Assembly: GCF_000152785.1 (NCBI RefSeq)
Contig: NZ_CH672414.1
Location: forward strand, 1,543,154-1,607,153
DNA: 64,000 nt
Direction: 5' to 3'
Source: Yoonia vestfoldensis SKA53
Lineage (GTDB): Bacteria; Pseudomonadota; Alphaproteobacteria; Rhodobacterales; Rhodobacteraceae
In this document: positions 6,541 through 29,606 of the stretch, in pieces
Position numbering within the stretch: the first letter of the stretch is position 1
Layout of the letters: each line of letters begins with the position of its first letter
Notes under the pieces: model-generated
Seen by the model: the letters and a program-made list of their open reading frames with translations, nothing else
Databases searched by the model: none
Told to the model about the DNA's origin: nothing
Position numbers and translations under genes: made by a program

Positions 6541-6596
6541 ACAAATTTGCAGACAACCTATTGAATTATATATGAATACAATCTTTGCGTTACCTC

Positions 6597-6783
6597 CGAT
6601 TTAGCGGCCGCTATAACCAGGCAATCCGGCATGAATGGCTGGACCAATACAGCTTCGAAAGCATCGCGGTGGCTCAGGATCAAGCCACGCAATGGCTGTC
6701 GATTTACAACAGCGCCGCCCCAACATGTGCAGCGGCGGCATCATACCTGCCATGAGACTGAAAATGGCGGCGTACGCTTTACA
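6597..6783 (+). pseudogene. IS3-family transposase, frameshifted C-terminal remnant
   Basis: From 6597 one frame reads RFSGRYNQAIRHEWLDQYSF and on to SIYNSAA. The homology then continues in another frame as RPNMCSGGIIPAMRLKMAA. Together these match the end of IS3-group OrfB (family pattern: ERYNRTVRHEWLDQY ... YNNDRPNMGIGGITPAMKLKMAA). A frameshift near 6718 separates the two parts. Everything upstream, including the DDE catalytic core, is gone. No terminal inverted repeats were identified. It is a scar of an old insertion between the ABC operon and the peroxidase gene. Confidence 0.75.
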
Positions 6784-7030
6784 GGTGTACTCTTTCAAAA
6801 ATGAGGCGATTACCATCACAGTCGCACTTCAATCTCAGACATCAGCCGGTTGGCTTCTTCTTTTGGTCATGTGGCGTATTTGTGCGGCTATCAAAGGCAT
6901 CATCCCGCCCGGTACGATCTGTTGCAACACCGATCAAAGGCCCTAGATCTATGTTACGAATGGAGGGCTCGGACGCATCCCAAATGCACTGGCCCTCGCA
7001 GCCCATACCCCATGCTCAGAGGAGCATACG

Positions 7031-7609
7031 ATGCATATCAAAGCCGCAAAAAAGCTGTTTATCCTTAGCAAACGCATATGCGTGGGCATCATGGTCGCTT
7101 TTCTGGTCGTTACGGGCAGTGCCAGCATGGCACTTGACCGCGATACGCCGTTTGAATCGATCTACGGTGGCACATTAACTTTGTCGCAATGGGAGGGTCA
7201 GCCGGTGCTTGTTGTTAATACCGCGTCTTTATGCGCCTTCACCGATCAATATCGCGACCTGCAGGCGCTTTATGACCGCTATCGTGACGCAGGTCTGGTA
7301 GTTCTGGCGGTGCCATCGGACGATTTCAATCAAGAACTGGCCAGCAACGCAGAAGTGAAAGAGTTTTGTGAGCTGATCTATGGTCTGGATATGCCCATGA
7401 CCATAATTACCAGCGTCAAAGGACGCGATGCCCATCCTTTTTATCAGTCGCTGCGCAAGGAGACAGGTTTCACGCCGCGCTGGAATTTCAACAAGGTATT
7501 ACTTGATGGTGAAGGCAATGTTGTTGACACCTTCCCATCGCAAATAAATCCCTTGTCAGATGAGATTACAATGCAGATTGATCGTGTTCTGGCTGATTTA
7601 TCTGGATAA
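7031..7609 (+). CDS. Exported glutathione peroxidase-family protein
   Basis: Thiol peroxidase of the GPx family, 192 residues. The peroxidatic cysteine lies in NTASLCAFTDQY and the WNFNK motif is present near residue 157. The NQF motif of classical GPx is replaced by DDF (VPSDDFNQE), so the glutamine of the catalytic tetrad is not obvious. The first about 35 residues form a basic start plus a hydrophobic core ending SASMALD, a likely Sec signal, so the enzyme probably acts in the periplasm on hydroperoxides. AGAGGAG precedes the ATG. It stands alone. Confidence 0.82.
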   Translation: MHIKAAKKLFILSKRICVGIMVAFLVVTGSASMALDRDTPFESIYGGTLTLSQWEGQPVLVVNTASLCAFTDQYRDLQALYDRYRDAGLVVLAVPSDDFNQELASNAEVKEFCELIYGLDMPMTIITSVKGRDAHPFYQSLRKETGFTPRWNFNKVLLDGEGNVVDTFPSQINPLSDEITMQIDRVLADLSG

Positions 7610-7763
7610 AGTCAGCACCTACCGGCAGACGGAATTTTGCGGCCTTTATGGTTTTCGCGCGATGAAACGAAGCAAGCTAGCAAAACATGATGTGTTTGAT
7701 CGCATCAATGCCGCCATTAGACGACCGCAATCACTATAAAATTTGCAAGCGATATAGCTTCAT

Positions 7764-8096
7764 TCATTTCGCAGGCAGTTCGACCGTAATTTTAATTGAT
7801 GAATACCACGCTGCAAGACTGCGAATTTCTTCATCGGTCAGCGTTTCAGCAATAATGCTCATCTGCTCGTTTTCACGGCGGCCGTCACGAAAGTCCTGCA
7901 TTTGTTTAATCAAGTAAAACTCGGTTTGACCGGCAAGGTTCGGATTGTTTGGCGCTGTGCCGATGCCATTTGCGCCGTGACATACTGCGCAGCCACGAGA
8001 CAAATCACGGCCGGTTGCCGCATCAGCCACTGCCTGATCGGCCAGAGCCAGAAAAACGAGTGTGCCGCAAAGAGCTGCCGAGTAGGGAAATCGCAT
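7764..8096 (-). CDS. Small periplasmic c-type cytochrome
   Basis: 110 residues: a signal peptide (to about residue 24, ending AVADA), one CAVCH heme-binding motif and a later methionine (ENEQMS) as probable sixth ligand, giving a class I single-heme cytochrome. The C-terminal LTDEEIRSLAAWYSS helix is typical of cytochrome c553-like proteins. It lies just downstream of, and in the same direction as, the PQQ-type dehydrogenase gene and is a natural electron acceptor for it. Confidence 0.82.
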   Translation of the reverse strand: MRFPYSAALCGTLVFLALADQAVADAATGRDLSRGCAVCHGANGIGTAPNNPNLAGQTEFYLIKQMQDFRDGRRENEQMSIIAETLTDEEIRSLAAWYSSIKITVELPAK

Positions 8097-27921: not shown

Positions 27922-28479
27922 TTATTGCGCGCTCAGACCATCGTGATAACTTGTATCGAGAAACTCATCGATGATTACACTCATGAGTTCCGTCTTGGAT
28001 CCGACCCCGATCTTGCGGAAAATAGATGTCGACTGTGCCTTGATGGTCCCTTGTGCGGTATTCCGAGCGGCAGCAATGTCGGCGACGCTAAGACCGCGAA
28101 TGATCAGCAAAGTGACATCACGTTCCGCCGCAGTCAGGCTCCATTCTTTGAATTTGTCGCGCAACACTTCGTCGAAGTTACCACGCAGCATGTGGATCGT
28201 TTCCTTGCTGGATTCTGCCTCTACTTGCAGAAGGCGCAAATACTGCCGGAGCGTGATCACCGCATATCCCAGCCCAAGTACCGCCACGGTTTCAAATATC
28301 AGGTGAACCAATTCTGCCGATGCATAAGACATGCCCGCCTGAAGATGCATGGCAACATCGGCAACCACATCAAACCCAAAGAAGGCCATGCAGGACAGAA
28401 GAACTGCCATTCCCAGAAAAACCGCCCGCCGTCTTGCAGCGCGGCGGCCTGATATCGGCGATCTGGGCAACGTGTCCAC
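27922..28479 (-). CDS. Membrane-anchored LuxR-type regulator
   Basis: 185 residues, GTG start. Residues about 20-85 hold two membrane segments (VFLGMAVLLSCMAFFGFDVV and LIFETVAVLGLGYAVITL). Residues 85-115 form a charged helical linker, and about 115-180 are a LuxR/GerE DNA-binding domain (LTAAERDVTLLIIRGLSVAD, GTIKAQSTSIFRKIGV). It has no phosphoacceptor domain, so sensing must occur through the membrane or periplasmic loop. It is divergent, 188 bases apart, from a secreted PepSY-like acidic protein, its probable partner or target. Confidence 0.8.
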   Translation of the reverse strand: MDTLPRSPISGRRAARRRAVFLGMAVLLSCMAFFGFDVVADVAMHLQAGMSYASAELVHLIFETVAVLGLGYAVITLRQYLRLLQVEAESSKETIHMLRGNFDEVLRDKFKEWSLTAAERDVTLLIIRGLSVADIAAARNTAQGTIKAQSTSIFRKIGVGSKTELMSVIIDEFLDTSYHDGLSAQ

Positions 28480-28666
28480 TTTTTGGCCTTTTCTGCTTTG
28501 TATGACTTTAGTTTATGTTGGCAAAACAGCCCCAATGCAAGCCTGCGTCCAATAGGAACTTACCCGGTCTTCGATCACCTTAGCTCCATCGCCAAGCCCG
28601 GGTCGGCAGATAGCAGACGGCTCGGAGCGGACAATGAAGCCAACATCCGACGTAAAGGGATCGAAA

Positions 28667-29242
28667 ATGACAAAACTGAAAATGACCTCCGCCCTGTTCT
28701 CATTCGCAATGATGGCAAGCCCAGCGCTTGCACAAGACTTTGTGGATGCCAAAATCCAAGAATTGTTTGCCCAAGGCTATACACATTTCGAGGTGTCGCG
28801 CGGCTTTCTACGCACTGAAATTGAAGCCTATGGACCGAGTTTCAGCAAGCTGGAAGTCAGGCTGTCCAACGCTGACGGTTCTGTTGTCAGCCAACGATCT
28901 GAAACTGAAAGCCAGGCCGAATATGAAGACAATATTCGCGAGATTGCCCGGCAGAACAGCAATGTCAGGGAAGATCGCGACGACAACGATGATAATAATC
29001 GTGATGATGACCGCGGCGACGACCAGAATGACGACCGCTATGATGGCCGCGATGACGATCGGAATGACGGCGGGAATGATGATCGTGACGATGATCGGAA
29101 TGACGGTTATGATAATGATCGGAATGACGATCATGATGATGACCGGAATGACGATCATGACGATGACCGGAATGACGATCATGACGATGACCGGAATGAC
29201 GATCATGACGATGATCGGAATGACGATCGTGACGATGATTGA
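28667..29242 (+). CDS. Secreted PepSY-like protein with an Asp/Arg/Asn repeat tail
   Basis: Start at the ATG at 28667 (GGGA six bases upstream; 28634 is less likely), giving 191 residues. A signal peptide (MTKLKMTSALFSFAMMASPALAQ) is followed by a PepSY-like module of about 75 residues (QELFAQGYTHFEVSRGFLRT). From about residue 100 to the end it is almost only D, R, N, H and G, built on the eight-residue unit RNDDHDDD, four identical copies near the end. The tail is strongly acidic and may bind Ca2+ or other cations. Repeat DNA may vary in copy number. Confidence 0.78.
   Translation: MTKLKMTSALFSFAMMASPALAQDFVDAKIQELFAQGYTHFEVSRGFLRTEIEAYGPSFSKLEVRLSNADGSVVSQRSETESQAEYEDNIREIARQNSNVREDRDDNDDNNRDDDRGDDQNDDRYDGRDDDRNDGGNDDRDDDRNDGYDNDRNDDHDDDRNDDHDDDRNDDHDDDRNDDHDDDRNDDRDDD
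29020..29242. repeat. Tandem 24-base repeats encoding RNDDHDDD
   Basis: Units of about 24 bases (CGGAATGACGATCATGACGA and TGAC) repeat nearly perfectly from about 29120 to 29235; less regular copies extend left to about 29020. The purine-rich order leaves other frames on both strands open through the array, which creates false open frames. Slippage could change the length of the acidic tail in steps of eight residues without a frameshift. Confidence 0.85.
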
Positions 29243-29606
29243 TTTCTAAACGACCAACGCTTTCCGGTAGCCAAAAACCTTACGGAAGGTGATCGTGGCG
29301 AACCGATCCGCGCGGTCATCGCTGCCTGAATGGCTTGCTTCGTATTTGTCAGAGACCATCACATCAATGAAAAACGTTGGTCTCTGACAGAATACAAATT
29401 CCCAAATCACCCGTCACCTGCGATCCGTGCGTAACATGCACGGGGTTTTCACACATCAGGCCGATTGTGAAACGCAGGCGGCAGGCGCGATCATGGCCAT
29501 CGCGACAGCCACGCTTAATCCGGATGTAACGGCCCGTTCGATAAAATCGGGCTGCTTCAGATCAGTGGCCAAGACAATGACCGCACCTGTGAAAATACCG
29601 GACGTC
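29243..29606. other. Intergenic stretch between convergent genes
   Basis: About 360 bases after the acidic-repeat gene and before the 3' end of the leftward dehydratase gene. The only structure seen is a long inverted repeat at 29342-29395. No coding remnant was recognised. Confidence 0.5.
29342..29395. repeat. 17/18-bp inverted repeat with a 19-base spacer
   Basis: GTATTTGTCAGAGACCA (29342-29358) and TGGTCTCTGACAGAATAC (29378-29395) are inverted copies with a single-base bulge. It lies between convergent genes, so a bidirectional terminator is the simplest reading, but the T-runs are missing and GC is moderate. Two facing transposon ends or a small MITE-like scar are alternatives. Confidence 0.55.

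Follow-up and report, generated by a model that had tools for sequence, protein, structure and literature searches.

A predicted membrane-anchored LuxR-type regulator and an adjacent exported PepSY-like protein: a recurrent gene pair and candidate kinase-free envelope-sensing module of Rhodobacteraceae

The window, a stretch of 64,000 nucleotides from Yoonia vestfoldensis SKA53 (contig NZ_CH672414.1), contains two divergent open reading frames (ORFs) separated by 154 bases as listed. The ORF list agreed with the original prediction, made from the sequence of this stretch, on the limits of both genes and on their head-to-head arrangement. The pair is flanked by a gene for an Lrp/AsnC regulator on one side and by one for a dihydroxy-acid dehydratase on the other. 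The features of the locus are the following (positions are those of the window):

27922-28479, minus strand: LuxR-TM, predicted membrane-anchored LuxR/NarL-type regulator of 185 aa with a GTG start (ORF call, GerE match and AlphaFold2 model)
27979-28140, minus strand: DNA-binding helix-turn-helix (HTH, GerE) of LuxR-TM, residues 114-167 (Pfam)
28240-28320, minus strand: predicted membrane helix 2 of LuxR-TM, about residues 54-80, continuing as a single helix to residue 112; limits set by eye
28342-28425, minus strand: predicted membrane helix 1 of LuxR-TM, about residues 19-46, preceded by an Arg-rich N-terminus (hydropathy and AlphaFold2, limits set by eye)
28500-28516, minus strand: candidate operator ATAAACTAAAGTCATAC between the two divergent genes, with the core TAAACTAAAGT at 28505-28515
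28634-29242, plus strand: PepSY-like protein whose tail is rich in Asp; 202 aa in the ORF list, 191 aa from the likely start at 28667
28667-28732, plus strand: putative signal peptide MTKLKMTSALFSFAMMASPALA, read from the sequence, cleavage site set by eye
28739-28906, plus strand: PepSY-like fold of a helix and four strands, residues 25-80 of the model, numbered from the start at 28667
28979-29239, plus strand: Asp-rich tail (49 of its 87 residues are Asp), containing a 24-bp tandem array

In a Pfam scan, LuxR-TM matched the GerE family (PF00196) with 34.3 bits against a cut-off of 23.5 over residues 114-167; all other Pfam families stayed below their cut-offs. Neither a receiver nor an autoinducer-binding domain was found with Pfam up to E = 1, and a kinase domain was not found by Pfam either. 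Hydropathy revealed two hydrophobic stretches (19-residue windows starting at residues 16-28 and 50-60), and in the AlphaFold2 model (mean pLDDT 92.9) helices 9-48 and 54-112 precede the HTH, with a short stretch of about 5-10 residues between them. This predicted membrane architecture fits the original description of a LuxR-type regulator with just membrane segments as its input. The GTG start is supported by a related locus from a Yoonia sp. MAG (L069), because the N-terminus encoded there aligns with it. The top Foldseek matches of the model were StyR, FixJ, VraR and NarL, at E 0.006 and weaker, and nothing was found at E ≤ 0.001 for this model or for that of the PepSY-like protein. The best NCBIfam match was NF047608, the LIC13292 family transcriptional regulator (residues 73-174), with 54.4 bits, far below the 200-bit cut-off of that family.

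The acidic gene on the plus strand probably starts at 28667, because AAAGGGA stands before this position and the sequence further upstream is not kept in the related locus L070, from an alphaproteobacterial MAG. For the mature protein, a pI of 4.05 and a charge of about -42 were computed, and part of the Asp tail is encoded by the tandem array (7.0 copies, 29073-29239). When the gene was compared with that of L069, 16 of 19 base changes in the domain and 10 of 16 in the tail fell on third codon positions. In domain and tail alike, most changes are at this position, as they should be in a translated frame.

The window protein matched no Pfam family at its cut-off, PF13670 (PepSY_2) included. 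When PF13670 was searched in five Asp-tailed homologues, it scored 22.1, 24.2 and 25.1 bits in three (cut-off 24.3) and gave no match in the other two; in the PepSY proteins of two operons with cytochrome b561 it reached 63.1 and 50.1 bits. The model of the window protein (mean pLDDT 85.2) shows one helix and four strands and then a further helix, and model and composition together point to a single PepSY-like domain followed by helix and tail. Fold comparison gave Z scores of 4.8-6.1 to YpmB (2gu3), 4k61 (DUF2874) and 4exr, amid unrelated structures of similar Z. A sequence-profile search of solved structures had ribosomal protein S3 as its best match (E = 1e-4), with no stretch passing alone, and was discarded as not credible. 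Therefore, of the exported PepSY-like protein with an Asp tail that had originally been proposed, the tail stands as described, whereas the domain would be PepSY-like only by family, through its homologues, and not by its own Pfam score.

In the genome to which the window belongs, all three LuxR-TM regulators and all four PepSY matches were paired, at three places, and both of its PF13670 matches lay inside LuxR-TM operons. The second of these operons (L049) is located behind trpB and has the regulator as its last gene (positions are those of the locus):

6578-7045: first PepSY/Asp gene
7078-7569: second PepSY/Asp gene
7566-8093: LuxR-TM regulator gene

The third operon (L050, at about 1301.7-1303.3 kb of contig C1) consists of a PepSY_2 gene, a second small gene and a LuxR-TM gene; the counterpart of the small gene in locus L066 encodes a cytochrome b561.

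The same pairing was followed in a set of 60 genomes of the genus, where 51 of 60 PepSY matches lay at most 2.5 kb from a regulator match. A PepSY neighbour within 2.5 kb was detected for 32 of the 35 strong regulator matches (E ≤ 1e-15) and for one of the 14 weaker ones. For two of the three strong unpaired regulators, those of the assemblies G010 and G020, an unpaired PepSY match lay near the end of another contig. The PepSY alignment used in this search was made from 80 of 92 stretches of regulator-found loci plus the window, so it may miss other kinds of PepSY protein.

The window's own copy of the pair is rare. Among the best 80 of at least 529 relatives, LuxR-TM was 92% identical to the regulator of L069, 74% to that of L070 and at most 50% to the next, and no regulator match above 46% identity was found in 35 other genomes of the genus. 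The window type of pair was thus seen in three loci, the window, L069 and L070. In L070 the pair, its orientation and the motif described below are kept between different flanking genes, which indicates that the two genes are retained together.

To look beyond the genus, 84,980 species genomes were scanned with the regulator alignment, and the best 80 of the at least 529 relatives were taken as named loci. A PepSY-like ORF was present within 1.2 kb in 67 of these 80, always 5' of the regulator, and both divergent and co-directional layouts occurred. The seeds of the PepSY profile were genes that lie next to regulators, the loci themselves having been found by the regulator alone. In the Rhodobacteraceae, 258 of 295 genomes matched the regulator at E ≤ 1e-3, a count that includes generic LuxR proteins, and about 168 of the 295, nearly each of another genus, had a strong match (E about 1e-30 or better). 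Across the class, 115 genomes gave five regulator matches at 1e-20: the window's own, one from the same family (L203), which had no PepSY neighbour within its 3.5 kb, and three from other families (L200-L202), whose loci each contain a PF13670 gene (42.9-53.0 bits), in two cases together with a cytochrome b561 gene. The original prediction had named rare co-occurrence of the two genes as one way in which it could fail, and it was not refuted on this point, given the 67 of 80 loci (best 80 of at least 529) and the 32 of 35 strong genus matches.

A lack of any functional link, with the genes being neighbours by chance or through inherited gene order, is already disfavoured, and we regard it as highly improbable. 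The genus operon frequently follows trpB, and therefore gene order has been inherited there, as such an explanation would have it. On the other hand, the complete pairing at three places of one genome, its presence in other families, the existence of divergent and co-directional layouts and the different flanks of the L070 pair all speak against it. Therefore, the pairing of LuxR-TM with PepSY genes is recurrent, strongly linked and beyond chance.

The intergenic region common to the window, L069 and L070 keeps ATAAACYAAAGTCATAC at 28500-28516, with one C/T position that varies. This candidate operator is located 20 bases before the LuxR-TM start and 150 before the likely start of the PepSY gene. 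A search of the window and 100 loci (903,210 bases) gave its 11-bp core, TAAACYAAAGT, 24 times, in many cases before a PepSY or cytochrome gene and in L072 just behind the regulator gene; the core was exact in seven of the ten loci of the window's regulator clade (see below). The core was present in operons of three types that have LuxR-TM as their common element. In the window's genome the exact 17-mer was unique, and four more sites were found at three mismatches, against six for the reversed control; one of them (C1:1301841) is located some 150 bp upstream of the PepSY gene in the third operon. A second copy of the core in this genome (C1:2421165) had no PepSY gene nearby, and it was set aside, two sites standing against six in the reversed control. 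In the region 28400-29500, promoter-like sites (1 against 1.1 expected) and terminator-like sites (2 against 1.1) were counted, and nothing in the window was found in Rfam at gathering scores.

Upstream of the PepSY operons of other loci, a palindrome was detected whose full form is CATAAAC-N4-GTTTATG. In 35 of 59 loci the exact form TAAACN4GTTTA stood ahead of the PepSY genes, compared to 2 of 607 control windows from the same loci, the motif having been found and tested post hoc, largely on the same, related loci. The 59 were those of 61 loci with a PepSY domain (E ≤ 1e-6) that have it on the plus strand; the count took in neither the window nor L069 and L070 (both on the minus strand). The single occurrence of this form in the window's genome separates trpB from the paralogous PepSY gene; the reversed control matched twice. 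A stricter form, TAAACYAAAGTTTA, was present once each in 23 of 56 genus genomes, with five reversed-control matches. All 15 sites that could be compared with the PepSY search were at 147-231 bp from the PepSY domain; 11 of these 15 genomes had been used when choosing the pattern, and G006, G009, G011 and G018 were new to it. Three further sites were inspected, two of which adjoin a PepSY gene and one (L218) does not. Besides this last site, two observations count against reading the motif as an operator: the exact palindrome is absent in 24 of the 59 loci, and the window motif is asymmetric, with one good half-site and a second half that deviates from the palindrome. A different palindrome, ATAAACCATAGTTTAT, was seen in five genus genomes (L184, L186-L189) near genes without a LuxR-TM link and was set aside as a module motif, being located at an unrelated place.

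We infer that the TAAAC-N4-GTTTA-type candidate operator is a binding site of LuxR-TM, and this shared element would tie the regulator to the PepSY gene. That the palindrome belongs instead to another regulator, for instance of the CRP/FNR type, with LuxR-TM just co-transcribed, is in our opinion unlikely. Sites of the CRP/FNR type have a 5-4-5 layout, and the FNR site, TTGAT-N4-ATCAA, is similar in layout to the palindrome; the 24 of 59 loci without an exact site could also be taken in this sense. However, the site of a global regulator would recur in a genome, whereas the palindrome is found once in that of the window and its stricter form once each in 23 of 56 genus genomes, and the same core stands in three operon types that share LuxR-TM.

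The loci varied in their acidic tails and in their partners. Among the best 80 of at least 529 relatives, at least one PepSY protein carried an acidic tail in 48 of 67 PepSY-linked loci under a loose criterion (at least 12 Asp/Glu in the last 40 residues, which includes short PepSY proteins without a real tail, such as those of L105 and L148) and in 34 of 67 under a strict one (at least 20 such residues in a protein of 105 aa or more), which leaves 19 and 33 loci, respectively, without it. In the same set, 11 of the 13 PepSY-less loci were flagged for a cytochrome b561 or a c-type cytochrome, the flags being automatic and the c-type one a mere CxxCH motif in a nearby ORF. As 19 of 67 PepSY loci are tail-less and some regulator relatives are cytochrome-linked, a simple model in which the tail senses cations is disfavoured. 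A PepSY gene was also present in 12 of 19 b561-linked rows, and therefore PepSY is the commonest shared partner.

Operons with the order PepSY_2, cytochrome b561 and LuxR-TM were located at L050:3727-5327, L066:3600-4986, L201:601-2010 and L202:1474-3017, also outside the family, and the palindrome also precedes some operons of this type (with one mismatch in L066 and L078). In L067, L071, L081 and L084, the LuxR-TM gene adjoins exported-looking c-type cytochrome genes, and TAAACYAAAGT is present in L067, L071 and L084. In L052, a gene for a 2OG-Fe(II) oxygenase (PF13759; 4878-5498) stands between two PepSY/Asp genes, and L116 and L139 have close relatives of it; that this enzyme modifies the Asp-rich tail is a guess. 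A second LuxR-TM gene, convergent with the first, was observed at L052:6550-7617 and L053:6406-6957 (both on the minus strand), preceded in L052 by a secreted-looking protein without an Asp tail.

In a quickly built tree of 89 regulators (SH-aLRT support, midpoint root), the window, L069 and L070 grouped together (support 99) inside a ten-member clade (97). Of the seven regulators of this clade outside the window trio, six were flagged for a nearby c-type cytochrome, which counts against the reading of the pair as a module. Most b561-type regulators and a large PepSY/Asp clade fell outside the clade of the window. As the tree sets the window trio among cytochrome-linked regulators, the PepSY/Asp pairing would have arisen twice or been lost in the cytochrome group. 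A loop motif of the regulator (P..W..E..E) and a PepSY-B motif (LGR) were concordant in 79 of 89 rows, an association that is not independent of relatedness. The window lacks the loop motif that accompanies the main PepSY clade, which counts against the module. Co-evolution of the two motifs was not used as evidence, since just two independent pairs fell on supported branches.

On balance, though with little more than even confidence, we read the pair as a kinase-free, self-regulated envelope-sensing module in which LuxR-TM would control the PepSY gene and the PepSY product would feed back. LuxR-TM would sit in the inner membrane by its two-helix hairpin, probably as a dimer, with the HTH in the cytoplasm binding the TAAAC-N4-GTTTA-type operator before the PepSY gene. 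It would in this way set the level of the PepSY protein, by activation or by repression, the PepSY gene being a dedicated and perhaps its sole target. The PepSY/Asp protein would be exported and most likely act back on the membrane hairpin, directly or by altering the ions or the surface that the regulator senses, on the model of the PepSY protein DbfQ acting on the kinase DbfS. What comparison of genomes brings out is the pairing, together with a conserved motif and where it lies; feedback on LuxR-TM would be the most likely next step, at about even odds, and is favoured because PepSY is closely linked in two operon types and DbfQ acts on DbfS. A role of the Asp tail with cations is plausible from its charge and by analogy with the metal-binding proteins LanP and UipA. 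The original interpretation is supported in part: the linkage of the two genes and the shared candidate operator speak for it, and signalling of PepSY to the regulator and sensing or buffering of cations by the tail are proposals. The short stretch between the helices would be a small target for a PepSY partner, and this counts against the module.

The same wiring could also work without feedback, LuxR-TM sensing a membrane or redox condition and switching on the PepSY/Asp protein as a mere effector, such as a cation buffer, a metal binder or an envelope protein. We consider this possible but doubtful. It is consistent with the automatic cytochrome flags of 11 of the 13 PepSY-less loci, since relatives linked to b561 or c-type cytochrome genes indicate that LuxR-TM can work with other partners, and also with two nearly conserved residues of the membrane part and the shortness of the periplasmic loop. 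In an alignment of 54 rows (the window's LuxR-TM and 53 of the 80 named regulators), the Glu63 column holds Glu in 50 rows, and that of Cys30, which had been Cys in 14 of 14 rows at first, holds it in 46; redox sensing via an invariant Cys30 was dropped as a general mechanism at this count. Against it stand the PepSY genes in 12 of 19 b561-linked rows and the DbfQ precedent, in which, according to the available text, a PepSY protein is able to act on a membrane sensor (PMC12714742).

Beyond the self-regulated module, we put forward only tentatively a Rhodobacterales-centred family in which one type of LuxR-TM would be set on interchangeable periplasmic partners (PepSY/poly-Asp, PepSY plus cytochrome b561, or c-type cytochrome) that report the state of the envelope. 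The Asp-tailed type would report cations and the cytochrome types redox to the membrane helices, and the regulator would answer via a dedicated TAAAC-N4-GTTTA-type operator before the same partner. As about 168 of 295 Rhodobacteraceae genomes have a strong match, the module may be a common, unstudied envelope response of a large group, and the candidate operator makes it directly testable.

The literature searched fits the original claim that the module is undescribed, as this LuxR/PepSY pair was not found there. The terms PepSY, LuxR and Rhodobacter were not found together, nor was PepSY with cytochrome b561 or the PepSY domain with aspartate-rich. PepSY and LuxR did appear together in work on iron limitation in Pseudomonas, in so far as the available records tell, and the records listed on PepSY and Rhodobacter-named taxa were, by title or the start of the abstract, not about such a pair.

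Among known regulators, DadR, CadR and HcdR of Coriobacteriia are described in the accessible part of the source as membrane LuxR regulators that respond to small-molecule inducers (PMC9734109). They resemble LuxR-TM in having a C-terminal LuxR HTH on a membrane protein encoded near its targets; however, most have 10-12 helices, compared to the two predicted in LuxR-TM, which also has an exported PepSY neighbour. On the side of the partner, LanP (lanpepsy) and UipA are, from the available text, metal-binding PepSY proteins outside the cytoplasm with acidic metal sites, and the two-component genes uipRS stand upstream of uipA (PMC11845868, PMC8963506). Each has two PepSY domains, and a long Asp tail is not mentioned in those portions, whereas the window protein has one domain and a tail, and its neighbour is LuxR-TM instead of a two-component system.

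The closest likeness is to DbfQRS of Vibrio cholerae, recently reported, as far as the available text goes, as a case of a periplasmic regulator, in which the PepSY protein DbfQ, encoded beside a sensor kinase, binds the membrane sensor DbfS and changes its output (PMC12714742). In both systems the gene for a small exported PepSY protein adjoins that for a membrane sensor, and the dbfQRS-like modules described elsewhere in that text, with two PepSY genes upstream or with genes on opposite strands, have layouts that are also present here. Asp-rich tails occur here and are not mentioned for DbfQRS in the same portions of the source. As described there, DbfQRS includes a histidine kinase and a response regulator, whereas here a single membrane LuxR protein would take both places. 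The module would therefore work like DbfQRS and is not a member of it, as kinase and response regulator are missing; the finding suggests the DbfQRS principle without a phosphorelay, with one membrane protein acting as both sensor and transcription factor.
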